63,203 nt of DNA from an uncultured beta proteobacterium (GTDB taxonomy: Bacteria; Pseudomonadota; Gammaproteobacteria; Burkholderiales; Rhodocyclaceae): assembly GCA_903908065.1 (NCBI GenBank), contig CAIVQO010000031.1, forward strand, positions 1 through 63,203, given 5' to 3'. This document shows positions 5,875 through 61,085 of this stretch, piece by piece. Within the stretch, counting starts at the first letter, position 1. Every line of letters begins with the position of its first letter. The position numbers and the translations under genes are program-made. The notes beneath the pieces were generated by a model that was given only the letters and a program-made list of their open reading frames with translations, was not told where the DNA came from and searched no databases.

Positions 5875-7189
5875 CCTGTTCTCTGCAGCGCCCAGGCATG
5901 CGCCCCTGGCCGAGCAGATGCGGCCGCGCACGCTGGACGAGGTGATCGGCCAGCGTCACCTGGTGGGTGAGGGCAAGCCGCTGCGCTTGGCCTTTGCCTC
6001 GGGGACGCCCCATTCGATGATCCTCTGGGGGCCGCCGGGGGTCGGCAAGACCACGCTGGCGCGCCTGATGGCCGATGGCTTCGATGCCGAATTCATCGCG
6101 TTGTCGGCGGTGTTCTCCGGGGTCAAGGACATCCGCGAGGCGATGCAGCGGGCCGAAATGCTGGCGCAGCAGGGGCGACGCACCATCCTCTTCGTCGACG
6201 AGGTGCATCGCTTCAACAAGGCGCAGCAGGATGCCTTCCTGCCCTATGTCGAGAACGGCACGGTGACCTTCATCGGCGCCACCACCGAGAACCCGTCCTT
6301 CGAGGTGAATTCCGCGCTGCTTTCCCGGGCGGCCGTATACGTGCTGAAGAGCCTGAGCGAGGCCGAGCTTGGCGAGTTGTTCGATCGTGCCTGCGCCCAG
6401 GCACTCGCCGAACTGGAATTCGACGCCGACGCACGCGAGCGCCTGATCGGCCATGCCGACGGCGATGCGCGGCGCCTTCTCAACGTGCTGGAACAGGTGC
6501 GCACCGCCGCCATCACGGCCGGCTTTGCAAATGAGCGCCGTGTCGTCAGCGCCGACTTCCTGAAACAGGCCCTGGCAACCGACCTGCGCCGCTTCGACAA
6601 AGGCGGCGATGCCTTCTACGACCAGATCTCGGCCCTGCACAAGTCGGTGCGCGGCTCCAACCCGGATGCTGCGCTGTACTGGTTCGTGCGCATGCTCGAT
6701 GGCGGCGCTGATCCGCTCTACCTCGGCCGGCGCATCGTACGCATGGCGATCGAGGACGTCGGCCTGGCCGACCCGCGCGCCTGGGACATTGCGCTCAATG
6801 CCTGCGCCACCTACGAGCGGCTGGGCAGCCCGGAAGGCGAACTGGCGCTGGCCAACGCCGTGCTCTACCTGGCCGTGGCCGCCAAGTCGAACGCCGCTTA
6901 CGTCGCCTATAATTCAGCGCGCGCTTTCGTGGCGAAGGACAAGAGCCGCGGCGTGCCGGAACACTTGCGCAACGCACCGACCAAGCTGATGAAGGACCTC
7001 GGCTACGGCGCCGAATACCGATATGCGCATGACGAAGCCGACGCCTATGCCGCCGGGGAGAATTACTTTCCCGAGGGCATGCCCGCCGTGCAGTGGTATC
7101 AGCCGGTGGCACGCGGGCTGGAACAGAAAATCGCCGAGAAACTCGCCCACCTGCGCACGCTCGATGCGCAGGCCGCAAAAACGAAATAG
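5858..7189 (+). CDS. rarA: Replication-associated recombination protein A (RarA/MgsA AAA ATPase)
   Basis: 443 residues. The N-terminal AAA+ core has Walker A GPPGVGKT (about 58-65), Walker B with VDEVHRFN, and sensor-1 GATTENPSF. The C-terminal half is the tetramerisation domain of the RarA/WRNIP1 family (RGSNPDAALYW, RRIVRMAIEDVGLADP). RarA acts at stalled replication forks and on single-strand gaps. It overlaps lolA by 17 bases. A copy of the dispersed 24-base repeat (6536-6559) encodes RRVVSADF, and 25 bases from 6536 are identical to an intergenic copy at 43006. Confidence 0.96.
   Translation: MLSATDLFSAAPRHAPLAEQMRPRTLDEVIGQRHLVGEGKPLRLAFASGTPHSMILWGPPGVGKTTLARLMADGFDAEFIALSAVFSGVKDIREAMQRAEMLAQQGRRTILFVDEVHRFNKAQQDAFLPYVENGTVTFIGATTENPSFEVNSALLSRAAVYVLKSLSEAELGELFDRACAQALAELEFDADARERLIGHADGDARRLLNVLEQVRTAAITAGFANERRVVSADFLKQALATDLRRFDKGGDAFYDQISALHKSVRGSNPDAALYWFVRMLDGGADPLYLGRRIVRMAIEDVGLADPRAWDIALNACATYERLGSPEGELALANAVLYLAVAAKSNAAYVAYNSARAFVAKDKSRGVPEHLRNAPTKLMKDLGYGAEYRYAHDEADAYAAGENYFPEGMPAVQWYQPVARGLEQKIAEKLAHLRTLDAQAAKTK
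6536..6559 (-). repeat. Dispersed 24-base repeat, copy A (inside rarA)
   Basis: On the minus strand it matches the consensus AAAGTCGGCGCTG + GCGGSACGGCG at 21 of 24 positions. It is identical to copy K at 43006-43029. It is read in frame as RRVVSADF of RarA. Confidence 0.75.
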
Positions 7190-7198
7190 GGACGCATC

Positions 7199-8479
7199 AT
7201 GCTGGACATCCAACTTCTGCGCAGCAACCTCGCTCTCGTCGCCGAACGCCTCGCCACGCGCGGCGTGATGCTGGACATGACCGGTTTCGAAACCCTGGAG
7301 GCGGAACGCAAGCGCCTGCAGGTGCACACCCAGGACCTGCAGGCCAAGCGCAACACGCTGTCCAAGCAGATCGGCATGTTGAAGGGCAAGGGCGAGGATG
7401 CTTCCGGCGTGATGGCCGAGGTCGCCGGACTGGGGGACGCGCTGAAGGCGGGCGAGGCCGCGCTGGCCGAGTTGATGCCGCGCTTCGATACCTTCCTCGA
7501 ACTGATCCCCAACCTGCCGCACGAGAGCGTGCCGGTCGGCCGTGACGAAAACGGCAACGTCGAGGTGCTGCGCTGGGGCACGCCGCGGGCCATCGCCGCG
7601 CCGCGCGACCACGTGGACCTCGGCACCGCGCTGAGCGGGCTCGACTTCGAGGCCGGCGTGAAGATTTCCGGCGCGCGTTTCACCGTGATGAAGGGCCAGA
7701 TCGCGCGCCTGCACCGGGCGCTGACCCAGTTCATGCTCGACCTGCATACCATGGAGCATGGCTACACCGAGGTTTACACACCCTACCTGGTCAATCCCGA
7801 CAGCATGTTCGGTACCGGCCAGCTGCCGAAGTTCGAGGAAGACCTGTTCGCCGTGCCGCGCAGCGACGGCAGCAAGCTCTACCTGATCCCCACCGCCGAA
7901 GTGCCGGTGACCAACCTGGTGCGTGACGAGATCCTCGCCGCCGACACGCTGCCGCTCAAGTTCGTCGCCCATACGCCCTGCTTCCGCTCGGAGGCGGGCA
8001 GCTACGGCAAGGACACGCGCGGCATGATCCGCCAGCATCAGTTCGACAAAGTGGAACTGGTGCAGATGGTACGCCCCGACCAGTCGTGGGATGCGCTGGA
8101 GCAGCTCACCGGCCACGCCGAGGCTGTACTGCAAAAGCTGGAGTTGCCGTACCGCAAGGTAGCCCTGTGCACCGGCGACATGGGCTTTTCCGCGGCCAAG
8201 ACCTACGACCTTGAAGTCTGGCTGCCGGCGCAGAACACCTATCGCGAGATTTCATCCTGCTCGAATTTCGAGGCCTTCCAGGCGCGGCGCATGCAGGCCC
8301 GCTTCAGGAACGACAAGAACAAGACCGAGCTGCTGCACACCCTCAACGGCTCGGGCCTTGCGGTCGGCCGGACCCTGGTGGCCGTGCTGGAGAACTACCA
8401 GAACGACGACGGCAGCATCACCGTGCCGACGGCACTGCGGCCCTGGATGGGCGGCGCCGAGAAGATCAGCGCGGCCTGA
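7199..8479 (+). CDS. serS: Seryl-tRNA synthetase
   Basis: 426 residues, the normal length. An N-terminal antiparallel coiled coil (about residues 1-110) grips the long variable arm of tRNA-Ser. The class II core carries motif 2 with [22 protein letters not shown] and motif 3 near [16 protein letters not shown]. It charges tRNA-Ser (and tRNA-Sec) with serine. It starts 9 bases after rarA. A tRNA-Ser gene lies 1.4 kb downstream. Its 3' end overlaps the convergent mltF by 14 bases. Confidence 0.98.
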
Positions 8480-59247: not shown

Positions 59248-59350
59248 AAATCAGGTCACGCGCTTCCGCAATAAGCAGGTATCCTGCGCGCTACGCGCCC
59301 GCCGGTTGCATTCCGGCCCGGTGCCTTGGGAAATCAGACGGAGGGAATCG

Positions 59351-60049
59351 ATGTCGCCGAAGCCTGGAGTTGCAATGACCGTGTTGCGGGCATTGCCGAT
59401 CTTCGAAACGCTGGACGACGAATGCCTCAAGCCGCTGATGCGCGTGGCCATGCTGCGCGCCATTCCGCGCCATACCGTGGTGTTGAATGCGGGAGATTCC
59501 ACCGACAACATTTATTTCGTGCTTTCCGGATCGCTCAAGGTCCAGGTCAGCGACGAGGATGGCCGCGAAGTCATCCTCTCCAAACTGGGCCCGGGCGAAC
59601 TCTTCGGCGAGATGGGCGTGCTCGACGAGAACCCGCGCTCTGCCACCGTGCTGGCGGTTGAGCCGAGCCAGGTGGTGGTGATGGGCAAGGCCGATTTCAA
59701 GCAATGCCTGATCGACAACCCGGACGTCTCGCTGTTCATCATGCGCAACCTGACCAAGCGCCTGCGCATGGCTGATCGCAACATCGAAAGCCTGGCCCTG
59801 CTTGACGTTTACGGTCGCGTTGCGCGGCTGTTGCTGGAATCCGCCGAGACCGTGGAAGGTCGCAAGGTGGTGACGCACAAGCTGACCAAGCAGGACATCG
59901 GCAAGATGATCGGCGCCTCGCGCGAAATGGTCAGCCGGGTGATGCGCGACCTGACCGCGCAGGGACTTATCGAAGAGCGCGATGGCCAGCTGATCCTTCC
60001 CGATCCGGCGGCATTCAAGCGCCATGGCGAGATGGATGCAGCCGGCTGA
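59351..60049 (+). CDS. Crp/Fnr-family transcriptional regulator
   Basis: 232 residues from the ATG at 59351, with GGAGG eight bases upstream; the frame back to 59108 crosses the tRNA and is not coding. The N-terminal cyclic-nucleotide-binding fold has [59 protein letters not shown], near the CAP phosphate-binding cassette. The HTH is [24 protein letters not shown]. There is no N-terminal Cys cluster, so it is CRP-like, not an oxygen-sensing Fnr. queA overlaps its 3' end. Confidence 0.92.
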
Positions 60050-61085
60050 ACCACGAAGTGCCTTGACGCTGGCGGATTTCGATTACGTCCTTCCGCCCGA
60101 ACTGATAGCCCGGGTTCCGCTGCCGCAACGCTCCGCCAGCCGCCTGCTGGAAATGAATGGCGCGCGCTTCCACGATCACAATTTCACCGATTTGCCGAAG
60201 TTGTTGCGGCGTGGCGACCTGCTGGTGCTTAACGACAGCCGGGTATTGCACGCGCGCCTGCTGGGTCGCAAGGACAGCGGGGGTCAGGTTGAGGTGCTGA
60301 TTGAACGACTGGAAGGCAGGGCTGAGGCCATCGCCCAGGTTCGCGCCAGCAAGTCGCCCAAGGCGGGCAGCCGATTGCAACTCGAAGATGCCTTTGAAGT
60401 CGACGTGCTCGGTCGCGACGGCGAGTTTTATCGGTTGCGTTTTCCGGGCGATGCCGCCGAACTGATCGAGCGCCATGGCCGCCTGCCGCTGCCACCTTAT
60501 ATCGAACGGATGGCCGAAGCCGGCGACGAGACCCGTTACCAGACGGTATTCGCCCGTGAAAAGGGCTCGGTGGCGGCGCCCACCGCCGGGCTGCACTTCG
60601 ATCATGAACTCCTCGCAGCGCTGCGAGAAGGCGGCGTTGCCATCGCCCATGTCACGCTCCACGTCGGTGCCGGCACTTTCCAGCCGGTGCGGACCGAAAA
60701 CCTGGCCGAGCATCGCATGCATACCGAGCGTTACACGGTGCCAGCCGCCACTGCCGAGGCGATCGCCGCCACACGTGCTGCTGGTGGGCGCGTGATCGCG
60801 GTGGGCACCACCACCCTGCGCACCCTGGAAGGCGCGGCGGTTGATGGCGAATTGAAAGTCGGCGCTGGCGAGACGGCGATATTCATTACGCCAGGCTATC
60901 GCTTCCGCGTGGTCGACAGCCTGATCACCAATTTCCATTTGCCGAAGTCGACCCTGCTGATGCTGGTGTCGGCGTTTGGCGGATTTGAGCCGGTGCGCGC
61001 CGCTTACCGCCACGCGATCGCCGAGCGCTACCGATTCTTCAGTTATGGCGATGCCATGCTGCTGCACAGGATGGACAGCCAGTGA
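60036..61085 (+). CDS. queA: S-adenosylmethionine:tRNA ribosyltransferase-isomerase QueA
   Basis: About 349 residues from the ATG at 60036; an ATG at 60024 is an alternative, and both overlap the crp-like gene. Family marks are [49 protein letters not shown] and [37 protein letters not shown]. It adds the epoxycyclopentane ring during queuosine synthesis. tgt follows with a GTGA-type overlap. Repeat copy N is read as KVGAGETA and includes the first residues of the conserved GETxIFI motif. Confidence 0.96.
60855..60878 (+). repeat. Dispersed 24-base repeat, copy N (queA)
   Basis: 23 of 24 positions match. It is read as KVGAGETA of QueA, in the same frame as copy F, and partly coincides with a conserved family motif, so it cannot be a simple recent insertion. 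Confidence 0.8.

Follow-up and report, generated by a model that had tools for sequence, protein, structure and literature searches.

A dispersed, clade-specific 25-bp repeat as a candidate DNA uptake sequence in a Rhodocyclaceae-type family

In the window, by which we mean the whole 63,203-nucleotide stretch of DNA analysed, copies of a repeat lie within, beside and between genes (Table 1). The consensus of the repeat is RAAAGTCGGCGC(T/c)G(G/a)CGNBACGGCGA, ~25 bp in length. Two blocks in it are conserved, one around AAAGTCRG and the other around ACGGC, with ~16 bp (1.5 helical turns) from centre to centre. The motif is present at all 14 places listed in an earlier note on this DNA, copy G being a 5' half site only, and 12 of the 14 match the IUPAC string of that note with three or fewer mismatches; 100 dinucleotide shuffles of the window gave a mean of 0.01 and a maximum of 1 match at this threshold. 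The mismatch tally of the note was right for D and H (full matches), for E, F, J and L (one each) and for I (four), and was somewhat pessimistic for others, since N is a full match and A and K each have one mismatch instead of three; B, C and M miss three positions rather than four or five. An additional weak 5' half site occurs at 39884. Copy B also falls within a doubtful ARAGORN call of a tRNA-Lys, the true start of the phosphorylase reading frame at copy I is uncertain, and the reading frame that contains copy F had no Pfam match at E 1e-10.

Table 1. Positions of the repeat in the window and the genes around them. Gene coordinates and strands are in brackets.
Copy	Position	Strand	Mismatches	Context
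A	6536..6559	-	1	antisense inside MgsA/RarA-type AAA+ ATPase gene (5858-7189, +)
B	10126..10149	-	3	inside radical-SAM gene (10023-12797, -), near 3' end
C	13107..13130	-	3	no called gene
D	17600..17623	-	0	intergenic (called genes)
E	22147..22170	-	1	3 bases past stop codon of COX15/CtaA gene (22174-23190, -)
F	26893..26916	+	1	within ORF (26080-28155, +)
G	28979..29002	-		5' half site only; close to start of called ORF (28929-29633, +)
H	33286..33309	+	0	upstream of Hsp90 gene (33406-35331, +)
I	37581..37604	+	4	near start of carbohydrate (glycogen) phosphorylase ORF (37532-40288, +)
J	40288..40311	+	1	overlaps last stop-codon base of phosphorylase gene (TGA/AAGTCGG)
K	43006..43029	-	1	5' (upstream) of FGGY kinase gene (41408-42973, -)
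L	45397..45420	+	1	antisense inside DEAD-box helicase gene (43899-45584, -)
M	51534..51557	+	3	antisense inside HlyD-family gene (51038-52624, -), Gly/Ala-rich stretch
N	60855..60878	+	0	queA (60024-61085, +), codons 278-285, KVGAGETA

The repeat extends far beyond the window. In the source genome the 25-bp form occurs 561 times with three or fewer mismatches, a density of ~1 per 7 kb, and the exact core 191 times; the reversed-sequence control and the control for the core each gave 0. A set of 442,503 bases from the same genome, of which the 379 kb outside the window is DNA picked around listed sites, contains the 15-bp core AAGTCGGCGCYGRCG 50 times versus 0.20 expected from an order 5 Markov model and 1.16 from an order 7 model (at most 1.2 for orders 1-7). 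The same bases contain 81 sites with four or fewer mismatches to the 24-mer and none to its reversed sequence. The over-representation described in the earlier note thus holds against the fifth-order model, and copies are dispersed genome-wide on both strands, as in uptake sequences.

Conservation in relatives, anticipated in the same note, was also observed. All of the 24 genomes examined from the same genus carry the motif (14-305 cores each), and among the 68 genera sampled in the family just six have it in abundance. Only 0-5 cores were present in 16 genomes from 16 other families of the order and 0-4 in 29 named genomes, and the core was absent from all 80 related loci among the matches listed in a scan of genome contigs. 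As expected of an uptake sequence, this clade specificity is accompanied by dialects: the 3' end is ACGGCAC in g35, the middle holds GGTG in g80 and CCGG in g62, and the g26 form reads AAAGTCAGTSCCGGCG..., with 10-96 copies in 10 of 11 g26 genomes. One genome (G309) has no copies and another (G017) has 49; both keep ComEC.

Among the three roles offered in the earlier note, namely an uptake or recombination signal, a nucleoid or segregation motif, and debris of a non-autonomous element, the first fits best. Judged from sequence comparisons, the repeat is quite likely to be a DNA uptake sequence, that is, a self-mark by which a naturally competent cell would favour DNA of its own kind.

The strongest rival, which we consider unlikely, is a genome-wide site for an intracellular protein of chromosome structuring, repair or segregation, like KOPS, Chi or matS. 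These, too, form many dispersed genomic sites, and dispersal, clade specificity and conservation in place are all possible for them. Polarity or regional restriction is expected of KOPS, Chi and matS. In G002, a relative assembled as one contig, the best two-arc score for replication polarity was 15/41 versus a permuted mean of 14.6, with 246 of 500 permutations reaching the observed score (one genome, 41 of its sites), and copies were spread throughout the chromosome with no regional restriction visible. Unlike in KOPS- and Chi-type motifs, orientation does not follow replication direction in G002, which weakens the proposed segregation or nucleoid role. Moreover, chromosome-structuring sites are usually shorter than the ~25 bp found here, and genus dialects and losses are less typical of them.

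Sites cluster directly after stop codons: 17 of 83 lie just past the end of a gene, versus a mean of 2.3 and a maximum of 7 in 200 random trials. This clustering, together with one overlapping inverted pair of motifs in G078, would suit the operator of a large regulon or a processing or termination signal acting at the RNA level. Such a function is nonetheless very improbable, as both orientations are used, at gene 3' ends (10 same, 7 opposite) and within genes (23 sense, 19 antisense), and about half of the sites (42 of 83) are inside called genes; the 41 of 83 counted as intergenic are an upper bound because the gene caller covers only 77% of the DNA. Single copies also fold not clearly better than shuffles. 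No stable DNA hairpin was found in three of three copies (z = -0.25 to -0.74), in agreement with the earlier note.

The origin of the sites was followed in depth in queA. The position of copy N also holds the motif in relatives from six motif-rich genera, and no indel occurs across the eight motif codons in 26 of 26 queA genes from these genera. Of the 80 named motif-free homologues, 73 have no indel either; the other seven have small ones, six of them lacking 1-2 residues and the seventh having a loop longer by six residues. In motif-poor homologues this position is a variable loop, and gap columns are commoner inside the motif (17/789) than outside it (108/11,629). As all of the gaps inside the motif come from the seven genes with small indels, none is motif-sized. 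Where the amino acid is the same, codon identity is 0.881 in the motif versus 0.530 in the rest of queA (23 genes, omitting the three of 26 with more than three mismatches, L119, L129 and L134), and the best of 304 other queA windows reaches 0.721. The alignments indicate that the queA site arose by substitution in place and not by insertion, as is the case for uptake sequences; a homologue in the compared motif-poor or motif-losing DNA exists for seven of 42 genic sites only.

These alignments contradict the suggestion that the copies are debris of a non-autonomous element such as a REP or MITE. A strong consensus and a high copy number are in keeping with such remnants, which are nevertheless a most improbable source, given motif-free homologues without a motif-sized gap, intact reading frames, codons conserved across genera and the lack of a stable hairpin. 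Membership in the REP, BIME or MITE classes was rejected, there being neither a palindromic or hairpin unit nor an insertion in the alignments. Finally, the idea that the motif is an artefact of composition or codon usage in a GC-rich genome, with a recurrent KVGAG-type peptide, is refuted by the Markov and reversed-pattern counts and has practically no likelihood: one reading frame, encoding xVGA..T, is common to 19 of 42 genic sites, but sites also occur in every other frame, on the opposite strand and between genes, and most genera of the same family lack the motif.

For an uptake sequence, the best reading is that a type IV pilus/ComEC system recognizes the motif. A minor type IV pilin would probably act as the DNA receptor at the cell surface and bind the ~25-bp site; the pilus would retract, and a DNA strand would pass through ComEC and then recombine. 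Sites would arise by point mutation and be kept and spread by biased recombination, because DNA with a better site would be taken up more often. We infer that biased uptake and recombination of this sort could yield copies in the hundreds, scattered through genes and the spaces between them, as well as genus dialects. Parts of the competence machinery are present in genomes with the motif: ComEC occurs in 40 of 40 genomes, and each of six genomes encodes 10-19 proteins with pilin-type leaders. Motif-poor relatives have both ComEC and type IV pilins too, so ComEC does not track the motif. Among the pilins extracted and compared from the six genomes, none tracked the motif as a receptor might; one orphan pilin is present in 37 of 40 genomes, and a clustered pilin occurs also in motif-poor G086. 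Searches of PDB and NCBIfam with a few pilins identified none as ComP, and the outer part of one pilin matched no pilin chain in PDB. The GRxR motif, named for a FimT-type pilin in a passage of PMC8897410, was looked for in nine FimT/FimU-like pilins: it is absent from all five of motif-rich genomes and present in both pilins of G112 and in one of the two of G086.

The Neisseriaceae likewise belong to the Betaproteobacteria in the older sense of that class. Like their DUS, which is read by the minor pilin ComP, the motif has many dispersed, nonpalindromic copies in and between genes, is limited to a clade and forms dialects. Unlike the DUS, which is 10-12 bp in length, it is about twice as long; it also differs in sequence and family, is lower in copy number and density than quoted for the DUS, and has no ComP recognised among the few pilins examined. 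Text of PMC3630211 reports dialects for the DUS, all with a CTG inner core. The motif is not a ATGCCGTCTGAA-type sequence with this core, CTG being lost in the g62 and g26 forms.

The Pasteurellaceae USS resembles the motif in its origin by substitution rather than insertion, its bias to gene termini, its A-rich edge, its more than one conserved block at a spacing on the scale of helical turns, and its subclade types. The no-gap argument and the terminus bias are reported for the USS in portions of PMC1626085 and PMC2346458, respectively. The motif differs in having two GC-rich blocks and in belonging to another bacterial class, and its consensus matches neither of the USS core types given in sections of PMC12616744 (AAGTGCGGT and ACAAGCGGT). 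The receptor of the USS is only predicted, whereas no pilin examined here tracked the motif.

Sections of the same 2025 paper (PMC12616744) state that uptake sequences are known from two families only, Neisseriaceae and Pasteurellaceae. Among the matches listed in the literature, none described a Rhodocyclaceae uptake sequence, nor do passages of PMC2907700, on the genome of Dechloromonas aromatica, refer to one; four 13-mers had no occurrence in the literature text in which they were looked for. The motif would likely represent a third, independently evolved uptake-sequence system, in a family of the Rhodocyclaceae kind. This system would comprise a 25-bp two-block site in five or more genus-level forms, lost from single species. 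Such a case, unrelated to the other two, would mean that self-selective DNA uptake evolves repeatedly, and would imply frequent self-selective transformation within the group. Its dialects and losses would provide a new comparative system for the old question of the preference of bacteria for DNA of their own kind, and the receptor might be traced by looking for pilins that change where the dialect changes. The motif might also be used as a sequence tag to transform environmental bacteria that are difficult to handle genetically, and could act as a natural watermark by which gene transfer among these bacteria is followed.

A search for dialects in motif-poor G121 gave no outstanding dispersed word. 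Motif-poor G086, which is Ca. Accumulibacter-like by the 16S probes PAO651 and PAO846 (0 mismatches), has one set of overlapping words with 21-22 occurrences, presumably a CRISPR array, and a different inverted repeat.

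The window, contig C31, belongs to a 3.84-Mb genome comprising 103 contigs. A dispersed 24-mer had been described at 14 sites (A–N) in the window, and the motif is present at all of these, as a half site only at G. The 24-mer matches 12 of the 14 at ≤3 mismatches, as compared with 0.01 expected from dinucleotide shuffles, and copy I has 4 mismatches. The copies are not confined to the window: an extended 25-mer form occurs 561 times genome-wide at ≤3 mismatches (259 and 302 by strand) and its reversed control (the motif written backwards) 0 times, and the 15-bp core, AAGTCGGCGCYGRCG, occurs 191 times and its reversed pattern 0. 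A 442,503-base sample of the genome (the window and 20 stretches, which were picked around listed sites and so make the sample somewhat enriched) has 50 cores, versus 0.20 predicted by a 5th-order Markov model, the check proposed in the earlier note, and 1.16 by a 7th-order model. At ≤4 mismatches, the same sample has 81 sites, and 0 in reversed sequence. Positions −1 to 25 are informative in the position matrix: a first block (GTCGGCGC) at 4–11 hardly varies, the middle at 14–18 is looser, a second strong block (ACGGCG) occupies 19–24, and A stands at both edges.

To our knowledge, the combined hallmarks of this motif are known only for uptake sequences. By these we mean its numbers; its occurrence on either strand, both within genes and outside them; origin by substitution, accompanied by additional conservation; limitation to a clade, with dialects; and a stop codon-proximal bias without replication polarity. 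Because the hallmarks fit uptake sequences and the core is shared with neither the Neisseriaceae DNA uptake sequence (DUS) nor the Pasteurellaceae uptake signal sequence (USS), the motif is likely to constitute a third, independently evolved uptake-signal system, in which it would be bound, favor uptake, and bias recombination.

In a survey of core counts across 297 genomes and 68 genera of the family, abundance was limited to six genera, the remaining genera having 0–14 cores.

Genera of the family in which the core is abundant
Genus	Cores per genome	Genomes
g1 (own genus)	14–305	13, including own
g24	169	1
g35	0–323	11
g54	366	1
g62	48–352	4
g80	38–188	9

Every one of 24 sampled same-genus genomes has the core (14 to 305 each); 16 genomes from 16 other families of the order have 0–5, and 29 named genomes from a queA search 0–4. 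By the 25-mer at ≤3 mismatches, a panel of 40 genomes gave 155–745 copies in 23 of 25 genomes from the six rich genera, the exceptions being G017 (49) and G309 (0); the other 15 had 0–56, and reversed controls across the panel 0–2. A 16S tree of 13 genomes groups g1, g35, g62, and g80 with low-copy g39, adjoined by the motif-poor genome G150 (some inner supports are low), and leaves G086, g69, g42, g60, and g26 outside. A queA protein tree (supports not shown) places G150 among motif-rich genera, which would mean motif loss in G150. In G150 (genus g38), whose chromosome is otherwise almost motif-free, five of the eight near-copies lie within 41 kb; this segment may have been imported from a motif-rich donor. 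A dispersed inverted repeat distinct from the motif, of the type GGTCATGACTTTTCCAG...GATCATGAAAGTCATGACC, occurs in G086 (stretches L264, L266, and L268), a genome that two 16S probes mark as Ca. Accumulibacter-like. Judging by such probes and by the membership of HGW-Betaproteobacteria-14, the family is probably Rhodocyclaceae as GTDB defines it. The exact 25-mer also occurs in 34 stretches of viral contigs (L331–L364; three in one contig, two in another), representing either prophage contigs that include host DNA or phages bearing the mark.

The motif differs systematically between genera across stretches of several genomes. The g35 genome G147 has a 3' end of ACGGCAC (A at 24 in 91% and C at 25 in 78% of 37 sites), the g80 genome G214 prefers a GGTGA middle (T at 15 in 63% and A at 17 in 89% of 19 sites), and the g62 genome G114 prefers CCGG, with position 4 relaxed (13 sites). 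A stronger variant, AAAGTCAGTCCCGGCGGCACGGCG, was found de novo in g26 (its 12-mer seen 12 times versus 0.08 expected). At ≤1 mismatch it occurs 10–96 times per genome in 10 of 11 g26 genomes (0 in G220) and 0–12 times in 22 other genomes (12 in G091, 4 in G076, 1 in each of three, 0 in the others). All forms mostly share the A's at the start, TC, a G at position 8, and ACGGC as the second block. DUS likewise occurs in dialects, as reported in PMC3630211, a parallel to these genus forms.

Copy N lies inside queA. Among 26 queA genes from motif-rich genera (that of G017 included), 23 are within 3 mismatches of the window's 24 bases in the same codons, and the other three have 4, 5, and 5; all 80 named homologues differ at 7–17 positions. 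The encoded residues are altered toward the motif (KVGAGETA, versus.AG..ET. typically elsewhere). At identical amino acids, codon identity in the 23 genes is 88.1% (1693/1921) in the motif versus 53.0% (32,862/61,999) outside it, and 72.1% in the highest-scoring of the 304 other windows of eight codons. None of the 26 genes has an indel in the eight motif codons; seven of the 80 named homologues do, six losing one or two residues and one having a six-residue longer loop. Six other genic sites, each compared with one homologue from motif-poor or motif-losing DNA at identities low for some, have no gap in motif columns, and two of them have small gaps adjacent to it. For the 87 pairs together, gaps take up a larger share of columns within the motif (17/789) than elsewhere (108/11,629), every motif-column gap stemming from the same seven queA genes. 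The same gap test is reported to have served for USS to show an origin other than insertion (PMC1626085).

In the nearest relative, G008, 10 of the 14 window sites fall within aligned DNA: eight keep 22–24 of 24 bases between flanks of 59 to 90% identity, copy L retains 20, and half site G is not preserved. More distant relatives have partly lost the sites (copy L keeps 10 of 24 in G002 and 17 in G018), and G106 keeps 23 at copy L and 20 at copy M despite flanks of 45 and 48%. As judged from these alignments, conservation matches what would be expected of sites arisen by substitution and maintained by selection or drive. The queA tree (supports not shown) groups the genes of the window, G008, and G006 with g80 instead of the remaining g1 genomes, which may reflect exchange of queA between motif-sharing genera.

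Of 83 sites, a rough gene caller places 42 inside genes (23 sense, 19 antisense) and 41 outside, the latter an upper bound because coding calls covered just 77% of the DNA. The genic sites use all six frames, 19 being in the frame that encodes mostly K/E-V-G-A-x-x-T. Seventeen of the 83 overlap a stop codon or fall ≤40 bases 3' of one (random mean 2.3, maximum 7, 200 trials), and in seven of these the final stop-codon base is also part of the site, e.g., TGA|AAGTCGG. Terminus and frame biases are among those reported for uptake sequences (PMC2346458). Sites are irregularly spaced (mean 4.2 kb, sd 3.1 kb, 62 gaps in sampled DNA), and two oppositely oriented arcs were not seen in the one-contig genome G002 (41 C-variant sites, score 15; 246 of 500 permutations scored as high). 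ARAGORN calls a tRNA-Lys (ttt) that overlaps both copy B and a radical-SAM gene in its 3' part; this call is probably a false positive.

Coordinates of loci discussed
Feature	DNA	Position
Copy B	window	10126
Copy I	window	37581
Copy L	window	45397
Copy M	window	51534
Copy N	window	60855
queA	window	60024–61085
ARAGORN tRNA-Lys (ttt)	window	10112–10204
Near-copy cluster	G150:C1	1461264–1502266
Orphan pilin, own genome	L198 of G000:C77	1593–2285
Orphan pilin, g62	G114:C3	71567–72244

ComEC (PF03772) was found in all 40 family genomes tested, motif-rich or motif-poor, and six genomes have 10–19 type IV pilin leaders each; their presence makes DNA uptake by these cells plausible. The distribution of this machinery does not follow that of the motif. 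Neither a minor-pilin cluster nor an orphan pilin, the candidates examined, is limited to motif-rich genomes, and a PDB search with one examined pilin returned no pilin match. For Pasteurellaceae, the receptor is described as only predicted in PMC12616744. G017 (same genus) and G309 (g35), which have few or no sites, retain ComEC, and the two form a natural test set for receptor identification. The orphan pilin of the own genome is 77% identical to that of g62 and 67% to that of same-genus G002, suggesting possible exchange between genera.
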